Of a DNA stretch of 64,000 nucleotides, positions 45,987 to 53,394 are shown one piece after another (position 1 is the stretch's first letter; the number at the start of each line of letters is the position of its first letter). This stretch comes from Chloroflexota bacterium. GTDB lineage: Bacteria; Chloroflexota; UBA11872. The position numbers were made by a program, and so were the translations under genes. The stretch spans positions 62,001 through 126,000 of the forward strand of contig JAJDZU010000020.1 of NCBI GenBank assembly GCA_022824495.1. Direction: 5' to 3'. Under the pieces are notes generated by a model. That model made no database searches. It was not told where the DNA came from and saw only the letters and a program-made list of their open reading frames with translations.

Positions 45987-47258
45987 TCAGCCGCTAACGA
46001 TGTCCCCTTCGACCGGATCGGCGCGGATGCCCTGAGCTTCGACCCACTCGATGGCGGCTTCGATCTCGGAGCGCTCGCCTTCCAACATCAGCTGTACCCA
46101 GCCGATGCCGGCGTCGATGTCGGCCCGGCGGACGTTGAACTTCAGGTGAAAGCGCCGCGCGATCTCGTACAGGATCGGTTCCTGGATTCGATCCGACGGA
46201 TAGGTGAACTGGATGCGAATCCTTGCCAGCCCGTGATCAGGCCGCCGTTCGCTCGCGGGATGAACATCGTCGTCGATATCCACCGGCGATCCGCGCTCGG
46301 CCGACTCGCGGAGGGCGTCCAGCACCCGCAGCGTACGGACCGCATCGTGCCCGTCCACGCTGGGCGGGCGGCCGATGTGCACGGCGGCGGCGAATTCCGC
46401 CATCTCGGCGTCGTACATGGGCTGCATCGGATCCGACTGCACGAACTCCACGGTGGGGAGCCGGTACTCGTGGGCGCCGGCACTCTCGATGTCAATCCGG
46501 TTGTTCTTCCAGTCGGACCGAATTCGCCCGCGGTCGCCGGTGATCTCCAGATGGTCGTAGGCAACGCCGGCGGCTTGGCTCAGGCTGATCGTGGCGCTGA
46601 CGCCGTCGGCGAACTCAATGAGACCGGAGATCGACTCATCGCTGCCCGTGTCGTCGCGAAACGTCATCGTGGCGTAGGCGCGAACGACCGATTGGCGGTG
46701 CAACCACAGCAATTGGTCAACGAGGTGGGATCCAAGGAAGAGCAACTGCCCGCCGCCGCGGGCGGGATCGGCCAGCCAGCCCGGCAGCGGAGGGCTGCCC
46801 TTGGCGGCCGCCAGGGTGCGAATGTTGCCGATTACGCCACGGCGGACCAGGTTGCGCGCGCGGGTGCGCACTTCGTTGAAGCGCAGGCAATACGCGGGCA
46901 TGAAGGTCAAGTCCCGGGCGAGCGCGGCCTCAACGACTTCGGTCACTTCGGCCGCATTCAGTCCGGCGGGCTTCTCAACCAAGACGTGCAGGCCGGCTTC
47001 AATGCAGGCCCGCGTGGCTGGGACCAACTCGTCGTGGGGAACGGCGATGACTGCCGCGTCGGCGTAAGACTCGGCCGTCAGGGCCTGGACGCTGGTCAGC
47101 ACTTCGGCCACGCCGTGCGCGGTTTTACGTGCGGTTTCGGCGTCCACGTCCACGCAGGCGCTCAGGGCTACGCCATCCGTATGCCAGACGGCTGGCGCCA
47201 GGCGGGTCGAGCCGTGGCTGCCACACCCGATCAAGGCGATGCGAAGGTCAGATGCCAT
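45987..47258 (-). CDS. Gfo/Idh/MocA oxidoreductase fused to a C-terminal NIL domain
   Basis: The 423-residue protein has the N-terminal NAD(P)-binding fold (LIGCGSHGSTRL, residues 9-20), the catalytic EKP (95-97) and the C-terminal oxidoreductase domain to about 335 (GGGQLLFLGSHLVDQLLWL). Residues about 344-417, beginning LARIRIQFTYPSDRIQEPIL and including NVRRADIDAGIGWVQLMLEG, match the NIL domain, a ferredoxin-like fold known at the C-terminus of methionine transporter ATPase MetN, where it binds methionine and inhibits transport. A fusion with this oxidoreductase is unusual. The substrate is unknown. It follows the ABC permease on the same strand. Confidence 0.82.
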   Translation of the reverse strand: MASDLRIALIGCGSHGSTRLAPAVWHTDGVALSACVDVDAETARKTAHGVAEVLTSVQALTAESYADAAVIAVPHDELVPATRACIEAGLHVLVEKPAGLNAAEVTEVVEAALARDLTFMPAYCLRFNEVRTRARNLVRRGVIGNIRTLAAAKGSPPLPGWLADPARGGGQLLFLGSHLVDQLLWLHRQSVVRAYATMTFRDDTGSDESISGLIEFADGVSATISLSQAAGVAYDHLEITGDRGRIRSDWKNNRIDIESAGAHEYRLPTVEFVQSDPMQPMYDAEMAEFAAAVHIGRPPSVDGHDAVRTLRVLDALRESAERGSPVDIDDDVHPASERRPDHGLARIRIQFTYPSDRIQEPILYEIARRFHLKFNVRRADIDAGIGWVQLMLEGERSEIEAAIEWVEAQGIRADPVEGDIVSG

Positions 47259-47303: not shown

Positions 47304-48140
47304 CTAGAAGTCGCGGCGCTGAAAGGCTCGCAGCGCGAACCCAAGGGTCAGCGCTAGGTGCAGAAAGGCGATCAGCAGCATCCAACCGGACGGGGGGTTG
47401 CTGGCGCCGAACGGCCCGGCGCTCAACTCGCCGACGAAGCCGCCGGTTGCCAGTTGGGCGCTGGCCATGTCCCACATGGCCCGGGTCGGCACGAGCACGC
47501 TGCTGAAGACGCCGATGTTGAACATCACGGCGCTTTCGAGCACGTCGCCGATCTGCTCGATCACGCCGCCGATCAAGGCAGTGGCATAGAGCGTGAACAC
47601 GATCACGCCATTCGGCAGCGGGCTCAGGCGGGAGCTTCCCGCCAGCGCCAGGCCGATCAGCAGCATCGAAGCCAGCAGCATCAGGAACGGACCGGCCCAG
47701 CTGCCGCCGACGATCTCACCGGTGATCACGGCCACGATCAGGATCATCAGGCTTGCCGACACGCCGATGAAGACGGCGAGCATCAACGTGAAGCCGACGA
47801 ACTTTCCAAGCACGATTTCGCTGCGTCGGACCGGCCGCGCGGCAATGGCATGCAGGGTGCCCTGGTCGACCTCGCCCGACAGGGCGCCAACGGAGAGAAA
47901 GACGGCGAGCACCGAAGCGATGAAGTTGAGACTCCACAAGCCGCCTACCAGCATCAGGCTTACGACGCCTTCCGTCAGTCCCGGCGGACCGCCCTGGGTC
48001 TCCTGCAAGTCGCGGTATCCGAACCAGACCCCGACCCCGTAGAGCACCAGGTAGCCGAGCGTCAGCAGCGCGGCCGCCAGCACCACGCGGCGCCGCAGCG
48101 CCTCGCGGAGCGTGAAGAACGCGATCAAGTGGGTGCTCAC
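47304..48140 (-). CDS. ABC-2 type exporter permease
   Basis: The 278-residue protein has six membrane segments in the NosY-like ABC-2 pattern, with FFTLREALRRRVVLAAALLTLG near the start and EVDQGTLHAIAARPVRRSEIVLGKFVGF, the conserved coupling region of this family. It pairs with the ATPase encoded just upstream (four-base overlap, GTGA). The cargo is unknown; an envelope or glycan-related substrate fits the neighbours. It ends in QRRDF. Confidence 0.84.
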   Translation of the reverse strand: MSTHLIAFFTLREALRRRVVLAAALLTLGYLVLYGVGVWFGYRDLQETQGGPPGLTEGVVSLMLVGGLWSLNFIASVLAVFLSVGALSGEVDQGTLHAIAARPVRRSEIVLGKFVGFTLMLAVFIGVSASLMILIVAVITGEIVGGSWAGPFLMLLASMLLIGLALAGSSRLSPLPNGVIVFTLYATALIGGVIEQIGDVLESAVMFNIGVFSSVLVPTRAMWDMASAQLATGGFVGELSAGPFGASNPPSGWMLLIAFLHLALTLGFALRAFQRRDF

Positions 48141-49048
48141 ACGTCGCCCCGTTCGGCCACGCGTACGAACAGGTCTTCCAGCGAATCGCCGATCTGCCGC
48201 ACGTCGTAGACGGGCACGCCGGCTTCGACCATCCGGCGGATGAGCCTGGCGGTCTCGTCATCGTTGGCAACGCGCACGCGAAGCCGTCCGTTGACTTTTC
48301 GTACGCCACCCTTGCCAAGGATTTTCCGGGCAGCCGCCTCGGCGCCCTCACCGGCCCGAAGCTCGATTTCCTGCGCGTTCAGCAACTCGTCCAGCTTGCC
48401 CTCGGCCACTATCGAGCCGTGATCGATGATGGCGACCCGGTCGCAGACCTGTTCGACCTCAGACAGCAGGTGGGAGTTCAGAAAAACCGTCACGCCGCGT
48501 TCGCCGAGTTCGCGGATGCGGTCCCGCACATCGCGGCGCCCGATCGGGTCCAGCGCCGAGGTTGGCTCGTCCAGGATTACCAGCCGCGGCTCGCCGACCA
48601 GAGCCTGCGCCAGGCCGACGCGCTGCATCATGCCCTTGGAAAAGGTGGAGATCCGGTCGTTCGCCCGATCCTTTAGCCCCACAAGTTCCAGCAGGTCCGG
48701 CACACGTTCGGTGCGCGCGTTGGCGGGAACGCGTGCCAACCGCGCATGAAAGTGCAGCAACTCCGAAGCCGTCAGCCAGTCGTGGAAGCGGAACGTCTCG
48801 GGCAGGTACCCAACCTCGGCCCGCGCCGCCAGGCTGCCGACCGGCTGACCCAGGACTTCGATCTCACCGGCCGTGGGGTAGGTGAGGCCGAGGACCATCT
48901 TGACGATCGTGCTCTTGCCCGCACCGTTGGGTCCCAGGAACCCAAAAACTTCGCCATGCGCCACCGACAGGCTGACGTCGTCGACGGCCAGCGTGCGGCC
49001 ATAGCGCTTGCTGACGCCAGACAGGTGGATCGCCGCCGGCTGGCTCAA
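48137..49048 (-). CDS. ABC exporter ATPase
   Basis: The 303-residue ATPase has Walker A GPNGAGKST (39-47), the Q-loop region near YLPE (81-84), the signature FSKGMMQRVG (136-145, with the usual SGG replaced by SKG as is common in ABC-2 exporters), Walker B LVILDEP (156-162) and the H-loop (LNSHLLSEVEQ). The TTG start overlaps the preceding stop (TTGA). It drives the partner permease downstream. The C-terminal 60 residues are a regulatory extension typical of the group. Confidence 0.93.
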   Translation of the reverse strand: MSQPAAIHLSGVSKRYGRTLAVDDVSLSVAHGEVFGFLGPNGAGKSTIVKMVLGLTYPTAGEIEVLGQPVGSLAARAEVGYLPETFRFHDWLTASELLHFHARLARVPANARTERVPDLLELVGLKDRANDRISTFSKGMMQRVGLAQALVGEPRLVILDEPTSALDPIGRRDVRDRIRELGERGVTVFLNSHLLSEVEQVCDRVAIIDHGSIVAEGKLDELLNAQEIELRAGEGAEAAARKILGKGGVRKVNGRLRVRVANDDETARLIRRMVEAGVPVYDVRQIGDSLEDLFVRVAERGDV

Positions 49049-49893
49049 CGTTGGACCTTCATAGTCTCGGCCAGCTGCAGGAGATCCTCGGGCGCCAGCG
49101 GACCGGTCAGGACCAGTTGCGATCTATTCCGCATCCACATGACGGCCGGCTCCCCGCTCGGAATTTCCGTGAGCGTCGGTTCGGCGGGCCTCGTCTCGTC
49201 GTCGACCTCGAGTCCCAGCGCCACCCGAACCAGGGGAATGTCCAGCACGTCTGTCTCCCGGCTGAGGATTGGCGGGAGGAAGGCCTGGGTGATCAGTTCG
49301 GCCAGCAGCTCCAATTCGCGCGGCGGGAGTCCGGTGACGAGCGGCGCCTCGACCTGGTAGAGCGTAATCACGCCGCCGTCTCTGCCATCCGCGGGCCAGG
49401 AACTGACCACCAGGGCGCCGCCAGCGACCGTGATTTCATCCGTCCCGAGTCGACGGGCGAGCCGTCGCGACGGAAATCCGGGCGCCAGCACCGCGGCCAG
49501 GTCGGCCGTGTCCAGGCCGAGGGTCAACGTTCCGAAGGTCGTGACGCTGCGCGTGGGGTCGCCCGAAAAGGCGGCAGGCGGATTGATCTCGATGACCTGA
49601 AAGGGAAGGTCCTCAAGGTCGGCGGAGGTTGCATCGGGGATCGACGTAGTCGGATCCACGCTCACGATCTCAACAACGTCAGCCAGGGTGGGCGCCGGCG
49701 TCGCGGCCTCGGTTGGCGCCGTTGCGTCTGCCTGGCTGTCGCCGTCATCGAGCTCCAGTTGCGACACCCGCAGCCAGCCCAGCACGGTGTGCGTGATGTC
49801 GCGCGCCGGGGCCACGGTGATGAGCAAAACCACAGCCACCGTGATCGAAACAACGGCAGCCCACAGTACGCGTGAGCGAACAACCTCTCTCAC
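49045..49893 (-). CDS. Anchored extracytoplasmic protein, unknown function
   Basis: The 282-residue protein has an N-terminal membrane anchor (about 10-30), a Ser/Thr/Ala/Asp-rich linker (45-75) and a beta-rich domain. Its end, EPAVMWMRNRSQLVLTGPLAPEDLLQLAETM, resembles DUF4367/anti-sigma-related lipoproteins in which a short W/G pattern precedes a helix; I note this only as resemblance. It overlaps the ATPase start by four bases and the GT87-like stop by four bases, which suggests work with the exporter or the glycosyltransferases. Confidence 0.6.
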   Translation of the reverse strand: MREVVRSRVLWAAVVSITVAVVLLITVAPARDITHTVLGWLRVSQLELDDGDSQADATAPTEAATPAPTLADVVEIVSVDPTTSIPDATSADLEDLPFQVIEINPPAAFSGDPTRSVTTFGTLTLGLDTADLAAVLAPGFPSRRLARRLGTDEITVAGGALVVSSWPADGRDGGVITLYQVEAPLVTGLPPRELELLAELITQAFLPPILSRETDVLDIPLVRVALGLEVDDETRPAEPTLTEIPSGEPAVMWMRNRSQLVLTGPLAPEDLLQLAETMKVQR

Positions 49894-51638
49894 GGAGTGC
49901 TTTCAGACCCCGAGCGGGCGCCGCGTACGGCCAGCAACAGTCCCAGGAACAGCATCAGCAGTCCCAGGCTGCGGACGGATAGTGCAGTCATGGATATATC
50001 GAAGATACTCCCAAAAAGCCCGCCGTAGGCGTCCAGCGGCAGCGAGGCCAGCGCCAGGCCGGCTCCGCATAGGACCGCCGTCCAGCGGCTGGCGCCCGTC
50101 GGCCAGCTGAATGCGAGGCTCAGACCGACCAGCGGCAGCAGCCAGGCCAGGTAGTGCGGCCAGGTGACGCCGCTGATCACCAGCGCGGTCACCACGGCCA
50201 GGCTGAACTCCAGCACGTACGCCGGTCCGGCTCGCGCCGAGCGCCCCAGCGCTCTCGCCGCAACGGCCAGCGCGGCGAGCACGGCGATCACGCTCAGAAT
50301 CCGGGCGACCGCGATCTCCGGCTGCAAGTCCAGAAAGCCCTGGGCCAGTTCGGGTCCCATGAACACGCGCAGGATCAGTCCTGGCAGCGAGAGGTTGTTG
50401 AACAGCGCGCTACCCGCCAACAGATCGGGCAGCCGCTCCGTCAGGTAGTAGCGCCACGTCTCCGTGCCGGCAAGGCCCAGGCTCAGCAGTCCGAACGCGG
50501 CCACCGTGCCGGCAAGGCCGGCCAGCGCTCGCCACCGACCTCGCCAGAGCAGGTAGAGGGCCAGCAATCCCGGCGCGATTTTCAGCATCGCCGCGACGCC
50601 AATGAAGGCGCCGGCCCAGGCATCGTCGCCTCCGCGCAGACGGTAGGCCGCCGCCGCCAGCGCGAGGCCGATGACCAGGTCGACCTGGCCGAGGCGGAAG
50701 GCCAGCAGGAACGGATCGAGCAGAGCCACGACGCCCAGCACGAGTCCCAGCCACACCGCGGCCGGCAGACCGGGCCGCACCATTCGCCAGGTCAGCGCCG
50801 CGGTCGCCAGCAGCGCCAGGTGGTTCACCGCCAGGAATGCCAGCCGCGCAGCTGCCAGTGGCATCGTCGTGTAGGGCGCAAAGTAGAGCATGGCCGTCGG
50901 TGGATTGGTCACCAATGCCCAGAGCCGCGTGCCCACGTAGGGAATCGCCTCGCGGCCGGCCACCTGCAGGGCAACCGTGTTGTCGTAGGGGTTGAGTCCA
51001 TCGCGCAGCGCCAGTGCGCCGATGTAGTTGACCCGAAGGTCCGAGGGCACCTCGATGCTCAGGACATCCAGAAGGGCGAGCCGCAGGTAGGCCAGCACGC
51101 CCACCACGGCGACAAGAATCAGTCCACCGCTCGCCAGCGCGCTGGTTCCGAGAACTTCCCCGGTCGTGACGGGAGACTCCTGTCCGCGCGGCGTCGTGCG
51201 TGCCGCCAACCACGGCCAGCCAACCCACAGAACGGCTATCGCAACAAACTTGACGGCCAGCCACTCGGTCACCGACGGCCGCGCGAACAGTTCCGGCGTT
51301 ACCAGACCCACGGTCAGGAGATGGTTGGTTGGCTCATGGGCGTACTGAAACGCCACGATGATCCAGCCGTCCAGCGTCGCCAGCAGCGGAAGGCCGGCGC
51401 CACGCCAGTCCGTTCCGTGGCCGGCTCGGCGTCGAAGCCAGCCCATTGCGGACCACACGAGGGTGGCGCCGCCAAGGCTGCCGAAGGCCGTGGCCGCCCA
51501 GGCTGCGCTCGGCGCGGAGAGGTCGGCTCGCCCAATCGAAGCGCCCGCCATCGCGAGCGCCATGCCAACCAGACTGGCCCATCCCAGTGCGCCAAGCACG
51601 AGCCGAAGCCGCGAGATGCCGGCGGGGAACCTACGCAT
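49890..51638 (-). CDS. GT87/DUF2029-type membrane glycosyltransferase
   Basis: The product of about 582 residues has roughly twelve membrane segments. The loop after the first block, DLRVNYIGALALRDGLNPYDNTVA, and AMLKIAPGLLALYLLWRGRWRAL match the GT-C polyprenol-dependent mannosyltransferase group (DUF2029). Such enzymes use polyprenyl-phosphate sugars on the outer face of the membrane. The ATG at 51638 is chosen; it overlaps the stop of the next upstream gene by eight bases. It shares the GT-C form with that gene and they may act in sequence. Confidence 0.75.
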   Translation of the reverse strand: MRRFPAGISRLRLVLGALGWASLVGMALAMAGASIGRADLSAPSAAWAATAFGSLGGATLVWSAMGWLRRRAGHGTDWRGAGLPLLATLDGWIIVAFQYAHEPTNHLLTVGLVTPELFARPSVTEWLAVKFVAIAVLWVGWPWLAARTTPRGQESPVTTGEVLGTSALASGGLILVAVVGVLAYLRLALLDVLSIEVPSDLRVNYIGALALRDGLNPYDNTVALQVAGREAIPYVGTRLWALVTNPPTAMLYFAPYTTMPLAAARLAFLAVNHLALLATAALTWRMVRPGLPAAVWLGLVLGVVALLDPFLLAFRLGQVDLVIGLALAAAAYRLRGGDDAWAGAFIGVAAMLKIAPGLLALYLLWRGRWRALAGLAGTVAAFGLLSLGLAGTETWRYYLTERLPDLLAGSALFNNLSLPGLILRVFMGPELAQGFLDLQPEIAVARILSVIAVLAALAVAARALGRSARAGPAYVLEFSLAVVTALVISGVTWPHYLAWLLPLVGLSLAFSWPTGASRWTAVLCGAGLALASLPLDAYGGLFGSIFDISMTALSVRSLGLLMLFLGLLLAVRGARSGSESTP

Positions 51639-53394
51639 GAGCGGAATCCAAGCCGCCGACTGATTCGTGCGTTGCCGAGCGCCCCTCGAGCCACAACCGG
51701 CGCGCAAACACAACACCCAGCGCCAGGATGGTGAGAGTTCGCAGAACGACCACGATCCACAGCGTCCACGGGTGGAAGTAGGACCACAGCACGAAGTACA
51801 CGGGGTACTCCAGCAGGGCCAGACCCGACAGCCCGGTCGCGATCAGGAATCCGCGTCCACCGGGAAAAGCCAGCAGCGCGAACGGCAGGAGCCAGACCAT
51901 GAATTGCGGCGACCAGCCCCGCAGATAGAGAGCAAACGCCACCAGAGCCAGTCCGGTCGTCCACACGACGCCCGCCGGACTCGGCGGTGACCGTCGCAGG
52001 GCCAGTACGGCGAACAGCGCCGCCACCAGCCCGGCGGCGGCCCACCAGGCAGCCCCTGGAATATCCGGCGTGTAGTTGAACTCAAGCGCGGTGTCCGGGG
52101 TCTGGCGATAGCGGTGGATCCAGCCGAATCCAAAGTAGCCGTCGGCCAGGGCCCACAGGGTTTCCCAGGCTGGCCGGTGCAGCATGTTTTGCAGCGAAGC
52201 CACAAAAAACTCGCGCCCGACCACGGCCAGCGGGGCAAGCGCGCCAACCACCGCCGCGAGCAGGAGACCTGCGTACCGTAAACGCGATCTCCACGCCTGT
52301 CCCGCCAGGAGCCCGGGCAGCGCCGCCGCGGGGAACAGCTTCGTCAACATGCCCAGCGCGATGGCCAGCGTTGCCGTGTGCCGGCGCTCGCATATCACCA
52401 GGTAGGTCCCGAGGAGCAGGAAGAACACCGCGATGGACTCGAAGTGCCGGTTGGCAATGTAAATCGGATAGAAGAGCGCGGCGTACGCCGCGGCCGTCAC
52501 CAGCCCGCGTGGCTCGTCCCACACGCGCACCGCGATGGCATGGATCAGCCAGAGGATCCCCGCCTCGAATGCCACCATCATCAGGCTGAACAAAACCTGG
52601 AACGCGGCCTCGTCGCCGCCCAGCGGCACGCTCAGCAGCTTCAGACCCGAAGCCATCCACGGGAACACGGGTGGGTACTCCACCCAGTAGTCCAGGTACG
52701 GCTGCAAGCCTTGCAGGGCTAGGCGGGCGCGCTGCTCGTACGCGCCAACGTCACTGCCGCGCTCGAAGAGTCCGACTGGCCGCCACAACAGCGCCAGCCC
52801 GAGCCGCAGCAGGACGAATTGGACAAAGATCAGACCGAACGTCAGCCGCGTGAAGCGCCCGCCGGCAAGCGCTGCCGCGGCGTCGCGCACCACTCGCACT
52901 GGAACGAGCCGCACCTGATCGAGACTGAGCGGCAGCCACAGCACCTGGCCGGCTATCCACACTCCAATGGGCGCCGCCCATAGCCAGCGCAGATCGTCCG
53001 TCTCTACCAGACGGTGATTCACGGCGTCTGAGACGAACGCCATGACGGCAAGCGTCGCCGGCGCCAGCAGCGGCCAATGCGTCCACAGATTGCCCGTCAG
53101 CACGTCGTCCACCCGACGCTGCGCCACGAACGACACCAGCAGCACGACGGCCAGGGTCCAGCCGATGGTGGCCGCCAACGTGACCGCGAACACAAGCGCC
53201 CAGGCCGCGCTCAAGTCGCCCGGCGTCGTACGCCCTTCGCGCATCAGGGCGAGAAAAAGGGCGAGCCCGCCAATCAGCGCCAATGTGACGACCAGGGCGG
53301 AAACCCCGCGCCATCGCAACGCGGGATAGCCCGAGTTGTTCGAGGCGCTCGCCTCCGCGGCAGCGCCTCCCGACGGAGAATTCTCTTGCGTCAA
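51631..53394 (-). CDS. GT-C type membrane glycosyltransferase
   Basis: The 587-residue protein has about thirteen membrane segments after a soluble N-terminal stretch of 25 residues. VEYPPVFPWMASGLK, NRHFESIAVFFLLLGTYL and GMLTKLFPAAALPGLLAGQAWRSRLRY resemble DUF2029/GT87 polyprenol-linked sugar transferases, though the fit is looser than in its neighbour. The start is TTG. It follows the metallophosphoesterase by ten bases on the same strand. The substrate is unknown. Confidence 0.68.
   Translation of the reverse strand: MTQENSPSGGAAAEASASNNSGYPALRWRGVSALVVTLALIGGLALFLALMREGRTTPGDLSAAWALVFAVTLAATIGWTLAVVLLVSFVAQRRVDDVLTGNLWTHWPLLAPATLAVMAFVSDAVNHRLVETDDLRWLWAAPIGVWIAGQVLWLPLSLDQVRLVPVRVVRDAAAALAGGRFTRLTFGLIFVQFVLLRLGLALLWRPVGLFERGSDVGAYEQRARLALQGLQPYLDYWVEYPPVFPWMASGLKLLSVPLGGDEAAFQVLFSLMMVAFEAGILWLIHAIAVRVWDEPRGLVTAAAYAALFYPIYIANRHFESIAVFFLLLGTYLVICERRHTATLAIALGMLTKLFPAAALPGLLAGQAWRSRLRYAGLLLAAVVGALAPLAVVGREFFVASLQNMLHRPAWETLWALADGYFGFGWIHRYRQTPDTALEFNYTPDIPGAAWWAAAGLVAALFAVLALRRSPPSPAGVVWTTGLALVAFALYLRGWSPQFMVWLLPFALLAFPGGRGFLIATGLSGLALLEYPVYFVLWSYFHPWTLWIVVVLRTLTILALGVVFARRLWLEGRSATHESVGGLDSAHA

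Follow-up and report, generated by a model that had tools for sequence, protein, structure and literature searches.

NIL domains (PF09383) form the C2 domain of MetN in the methionine importer MetNI, where they act on the ATPase and not on a dehydrogenase. In the NIL-ferredoxin proteins of DUF39 homocysteine synthesis, NIL adjoins a redox domain, and in Chloroflexota it is also encoded as a free protein of about 75–80 residues, mostly beside the genes for threonine synthase (ThrC) and ThiS. We found that the window (the whole stretch of 64,000 nucleotides analysed here) encodes a protein joining NIL to a Gfo/Idh/MocA oxidoreductase (Table 1), as had been read from the sequence in the first-pass annotation. 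All profiles scored above their cut-offs, with 61.1 bits for PF01408 (cut-off 24), 78.9 bits for PF22725 (cut-off 27), 65.9 bits for PF02894 (cut-off 22.9) and 46.8 bits for PF09383 (cut-off 24, E 2.8e-12), so that the assignment of the C-terminus held. The plus-strand translation of the same interval matched no family and was rejected. The reading we favour, which we hold to be about an even bet, is that of a one-time Gfo-NIL fusion, giving an oxidoreductase with an altered active site that would be tuned by its tethered NIL as a ligand-binding or pairing module.

The protein is similar to MetN in having PF09383, the fold and an asparagine of the N295 type, but its host domain is an oxidoreductase, and aspartate occupies the N295 column in 7 of the 19 fusions detected. 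It has no PF00005 ABC ATPase domain, and filing it as MetN was rejected for this reason. As in NIL-ferredoxin, its NIL adjoins a redox domain; however, NIL is C-terminal instead of N-terminal (compare L044), the genome has no PF01837 match, and the absence of a Fer4 domain led us to reject filing under that name as well. The NIL is related to the standalone Chloroflexota NILs, many of which share DPVEGD near the C-terminus, but it is fused and lies elsewhere in the genome. In comparison with Gfo/Idh/MocA enzymes such as inositol 2-dehydrogenase, 1,5-anhydro-D-fructose reductase and UDP-GlcNAc 3-dehydrogenase, it has both domains, GxGxxG and EKP, and differs in a phenylalanine in place of the active-site aspartate, in the appended NIL and in NCBIfam matches which, among those listed, lie far below cut-off. 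These place the Gfo half at superfamily level only, the best being inositol 2-dehydrogenase (120 bits; cut-off 355).

Table 1. Features of the fusion gene and its upstream neighbours
Feature	Position in window	Strand	Basis or remark
Fusion gene, 423 aa, Gfo/Idh/MocA oxidoreductase and NIL	45987..47258	minus	ORF and Pfam
NAD(P)-binding Rossmann domain PF01408, residues 5-122	46893..47246	minus	GCGSHG, EKP (K96)
Gfo/Idh/MocA C-terminal domain PF22725/PF02894, residues 133-328	46275..46862	minus	His178 kept, Phe174 for usual Asp
Variable linker, residues 329-343	46230..46274	minus	dN/dS 0.37 (g1), 0.24 (g2); residue 344 aligns with free-NIL start Met
NIL domain PF09383, residues 348-412	46023..46217	minus	Asn375 in the column of E. 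coli MetN N295
ABC-2 permease	47304..48140	minus	Pfam; synteny
DrrA-like ABC ATPase	48137..49048	minus	best NCBIfam match drrA, below its cut-off; synteny
282-aa protein	49045..49893	minus	no Pfam/NCBIfam match; by eye, a single hydrophobic segment near the N-terminus
GT87 glycosyltransferase	49890..51638	minus	start codon is an automated choice
GT87-like membrane protein	51631..53394	minus	22.7 bits, cut-off 25 not reached

The fusion gene closes a tightly packed run of glycosyltransferase and ABC genes that share one strand. The ABC exporter pair that had been noted beside it on the same strand was found there, upstream of a 45 bp gap, and a convergent run of Wzy-type, LPG-synthase-TM, GT4 and PlsY-type genes adjoins this run. 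A literature search, covering few subscription papers and no domain-architecture database, found no paper on the Gfo/Idh/MocA and NIL pair and none combining Gfo Idh MocA, fusion and ACT domain, and NIL does not occur in the main text of PMC11237513. Within this coverage we consider Gfo/Idh/MocA-NIL a new domain architecture of moderate interest, in line with the first-pass annotation, which did not know the pair as a standard one.

Distribution and origin of the fusion

We screened 400 sampled Chloroflexota genomes for whole-fusion matches at E 1e-38 or better and inspected the open frame around each NIL. The fusion was present, with matches spanning both domains, in all 19 genomes of one family, comprising the window's genus g1 (13 genomes sampled) and a second genus g2 (six), and was not found in the other 381 genomes. 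A single full-length open frame was seen in 18 of the 19, the match in G007 being in two pieces on two contigs. The first-pass annotation had proposed to look for the same fusion in related genomes; its recurrence throughout the family makes an assembly artefact unlikely, and misassembly was rejected on this ground.

A NIL, fused or not, was matched in 126 of the 400 genomes at E 1e-4. Outside the fusion family, ten matches of 76–88 bits lay in frames of 327–434 aa, scores that presumably are those expected of MetN; three of these ten were placed in a wider NIL tree and formed one clade, and the other NILs outside the family had no surrounding frame longer than 247 aa. Free relatives of the Gfo half (E 1e-38 or better) occurred in four genomes, G034 (43% identity), G113 (42%), and G020 and G023 (33–34%). 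In a contig scan with short query peptides, which reaches close relatives only, the near relatives were Chloroflexi/Chloroflexota MAGs, with bin names that we take to be those of sponge microbiome projects. The NIL domain had no match at E 0.001 in 72,556 plasmid records, and the viral contigs scanned gave one weak partial Gfo match only (28% over residues 1–153).

In the order, 24 genomes were searched and every one carries exactly one NIL (E 0.001 or better), fused in the 19 genomes described above and free in five genomes of a sister family. In a NIL tree of 80 columns, in which many other forks were unsupported and from which MetN, NIL-ferredoxin, L048, L130, L138 and NILFer_L105 rows were left out, the two families formed one group (98/97), and the fused NILs formed one group (100/99) on a long stem. 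The gene order in the fusion family is a GT87-like pair, the 282-aa gene, ABC ATPase, ABC permease and Gfo-NIL, and the ABC genes stand just upstream of the fusion in seven of the eight loci compared with the window. The GT pair is absent at that place in G013, and in G003 the fusion directly follows the GT87-like genes, without the 282-aa and ABC genes between. In the sister family, the free NIL is preceded by the GT87-like pair in G021 and G022, by a 279-aa gene and the two ABC genes (ATPase and permease) in G020, and by the ABC pair in G023. It is followed by a polysaccharide deacetylase gene and then by DegV-like and RecF-like genes (the latter labels by eye); G019 has neither GT nor ABC genes ahead of NIL and no DegV-like gene. 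Since the sister family carries an unfused NIL gene in the matching position, it is probable that a Gfo gene entered ahead of NIL and became joined to it in a single event.

The start column of the free NILs is Met in 20 of 27 rows, Val in three and a gap in four. The same column, residue 344, is Pro in 11 of the 19 fusions, Leu in six, and Ala and Asp in one each, indicating that the fused NIL has lost its old start. The simplest account is one insertion of Gfo ahead of NIL, with loss of the Gfo stop codon and of the NIL start. Separate production of NIL is unlikely in the window, where the protein has no ATG, GTG or TTG codon between residues 327 and 351. In several relatives a GTG occurs about 92 residues before the C-terminal end, and all six g2 genomes, which may make a separate NIL, have an in-frame ATG 77 residues from the C-terminus. 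The locus joins a methionine-sensor-type domain to a dehydrogenase, with free and fused states both in living lineages, and offers a clean case of a small ligand domain being recruited.

NIL half and free NIL genes near threonine synthase and ThiS

An AlphaFold2 model of the C-terminal 84 residues (pLDDT 81) showed the order beta-alpha-beta-beta-alpha-beta, and its best 11 matches in the PDB were MetN-type NIL domains (TM-scores by query 0.57–0.75), followed by ACT domains and other ferredoxin-like folds. The predicted C-terminus is ferredoxin-like and closest to MetN NIL structures, in agreement with the fold first suggested for it. The full-length model was weak (pLDDT 40, with 10 close relatives), and the fold assignment is based on the model of the NIL half. 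By sequence, the NIL region alone retrieved E. coli MetN (E 1.3e-4). When eight Chloroflexota NILs were combined into a profile, only MetN chains were retrieved (7/7 at E 0.01 or better).

The window protein has Asn at the MetN N295 column, which is Ala in 6cvl; the N295A exchange raised the Ki of MetN for L-Met 28-fold, according to PMC12357092. We found Asn at this position in every free NIL displayed and in 12 of the 19 fusions, the other seven having Asp. Amino-acid responsiveness of the fusion protein is plausible because of the Asn kept in these 12. The free and fused NILs were also compared column by column, leaving out MetN, NIL-ferredoxin, L048, L130, L138, L116 and L125 rows. Thr/Ser at position 374 of the free NILs was replaced by Phe or Leu, and the usual Glu at position 391 (22 of 27 free rows) by Met or Leu, each in all 19 fusions. 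These changes, together with Asp for Asn375 in seven fusions, suggest that methionine is not assured as the ligand, and the fused pocket may hold a new one.

Standalone NIL genes outside the order were examined at 27 loci (L110-L134, L137, L138), hand-picked to spread over families and left from 30 stretches after removal of one from the sister family, one MetN and one NIL-ferredoxin. Of these loci, 18 have a threonine-synthase-like gene no more than 1 kb from NIL, 22 have a ThiS-family gene no more than 600 bp from it, and 17 have both, the families behind these labels having been checked on one or two examples each. NIL was located between the two genes in 15 of the 17, and ThiS was the middle gene in L111 and L112. 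Two or three ThiS-like matches occurred in one neighbourhood at L122, L123 and L137.

In all 12 class genomes searched, ThrC and ThiS are side by side, and two to five further threonine-synthase-like matches were found in each. The 36–215 bp between the tblastn matches of the pair are too few for a NIL gene, suggesting, together with this constant adjacency, that NIL most likely moved out of the run. The window genome has the called genes of the pair about 20 bp apart and no NIL over the cut-off except that of the fusion. No NIL was found at E 0.001 in the 17 genomes of families f3-f5. Thus, NIL most likely left the ThrC-ThiS run in the order with the fusion and was lost in f3-f5, a direction of change that we infer from the present gene arrangements.

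No PF01053 or PF01837 match was found in the window genome at its completeness of 93.5%. In the 12 class genomes (G000 and 11 relatives), PF01053 was absent from 11, PF01837 from 12 and PF02965 (MetH activation domain) from 11; PF01717 was matched in nine, most strongly (E below 1e-150) in three genomes of the sister family. The fusion also draws attention to the Chloroflexota gene run with threonine synthase, NIL and ThiS, which might represent an undescribed homocysteine route, or simply threonine synthesis with a sulfur-carrier-like partner. In the 18 genomes searched that have NIL near threonine synthase, homocysteine-synthesis enzymes of PF01053 (MetB/MetC/MetY type) were not matched in 12 and PF01837 (HcyBio) in 18, G053 being 57% complete. 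No obvious paper on this gene run was found in the literature covered, which included few subscription papers.

These data bear on an alternative in which NIL keeps its ancestral job with ThrC and ThiS proteins encoded elsewhere, and the Gfo half contributes a reduction step that depends on NAD(P)H. Its model is the ferredoxin half of NIL-ferredoxin proteins, with a proposed reductive role in DUF39 homocysteine synthesis; PMC5764234 cites work in which a role of this kind was put forward for NIL/ferredoxin. The 17 of 27 loci with free NIL near both partners, the ThrC-ThiS pair of a genome whose only NIL above cut-off is fused, and the absence of PF01053/PF01837 matches from that genome are consistent with this alternative. 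However, three genomes from f3, f4 and f5 keep ThrC-ThiS, with NIL in none of the 17 genomes of these families, indicating that the pair can do without NIL. In addition, NIL lies outside the ThrC-ThiS operon in the genomes read from this order, and columns conserved in the other free NILs are changed in the fusion; we therefore consider the alternative unlikely. A related idea, which we see as a long shot, makes the fusion an equivalent of NIL-ferredoxin that depends on NAD(P)H, or an amino-acid-gated oxidoreductase. It would belong to an undescribed amino-acid route of Chloroflexota in which a ThrC-like enzyme, a NIL protein and a ThiS-type sulfur carrier act together in genomes that yielded no known homocysteine synthase.

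Oxidoreductase half and proposed function

Inositol dehydrogenase uses a Lys, an Asp and a His for catalysis. In our alignment, Lys96 was kept in all 21 rows reaching it and His178 in 22 of 22, whereas the position of the Asp was taken by Phe174, invariant in the 22 rows including three free Gfo relatives. Asp fills this column, four residues ahead of His, in each of five PDB relatives that were aligned; a sixth, dimeric dihydrodiol dehydrogenase, has Asp there too, with Tyr in place of His. The first-pass description of a normal oxidoreductase with EKP and GxGxxG therefore stands for the motifs and needs qualifying for the active site. The free relatives L023, L024 and L025 (from G034, G020 and G023) show the motif LLFxGSH, with Phe for the usual Asp, and Gfo/Idh/MocA proteins with this motif apparently constitute an uncharacterised subfamily.

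Both halves are under purifying selection. By the Nei-Gojobori method, dN/dS in g1 was 0.106 for Gfo, 0.373 for the linker and 0.035 for NIL (ten genomes, 45 pairs; 44 pairs for the linker), and in g2 0.103, 0.235 and 0.035, respectively (six genomes, 15 pairs); G002, G003 and G007 were left out of these sets. NIL is the best conserved part of the fusion by this measure and the linker evolves fast. The low values in both parts suggest that neither half is a passenger.

The replacement of the catalytic Asp by Phe in 22 of 22 rows, set against the Asp of all five aligned PDB relatives, might suggest that the Gfo half is no enzyme and serves as a dinucleotide or sugar sensor or as a scaffold, the fusion being a regulator. 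We regard this as distinctly improbable, as Lys96 and His178 are kept, the dN/dS of Gfo is about 0.10, and the occurrence of Phe174 in free Gfo relatives makes it a mark of the subfamily rather than of decay.

We prefer the reading of a tuned oxidoreductase, for which the domains, the predicted NIL fold, synteny and selection provide support, and in which the substrate class, the ligand binding and the effect on the enzyme are predictions. A Gfo gene would have been inserted directly before a NIL gene and fused to it once. The Gfo half would be a dinucleotide-dependent oxidoreductase, with Lys96 and His178 kept and Asp exchanged for Phe174, acting on a predicted sugar, polyol or related small molecule. 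The NIL half would work as an ACT-like module. It would associate with the NIL of a second subunit and bind a small ligand, most likely an amino acid or something related to one, and would in this way tune the enzyme or its assembly. A role in supplying the cell-surface glycan genes around the fusion gene is possible, to judge from the gene neighbourhood.

That the fusion docks through its NIL on the ABC exporter encoded next to it, in the manner of NIL within MetN, is very doubtful: an ABC pair stands just upstream on the same strand in the window, as in seven of eight fusion loci, and precedes the free NIL in G020 and G023, but no ABC genes adjoin the fusion in G003 or the free NIL in G019, G021 and G022, and the ATPase fits drrA (227.9 bits) better than MetN (116.7 bits), both below cut-off. 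The adjoining exporter behind the earlier idea of a transporter partner was thus seen in most loci, and the idea itself is weakened by G003 and by the three of five sister-family genomes without it. In each of the seven compared fusion loci with an ABC pair, the gene for the 282-aa protein precedes that for the ABC ATPase, and the unmatched 279-aa gene holds its place in G020.
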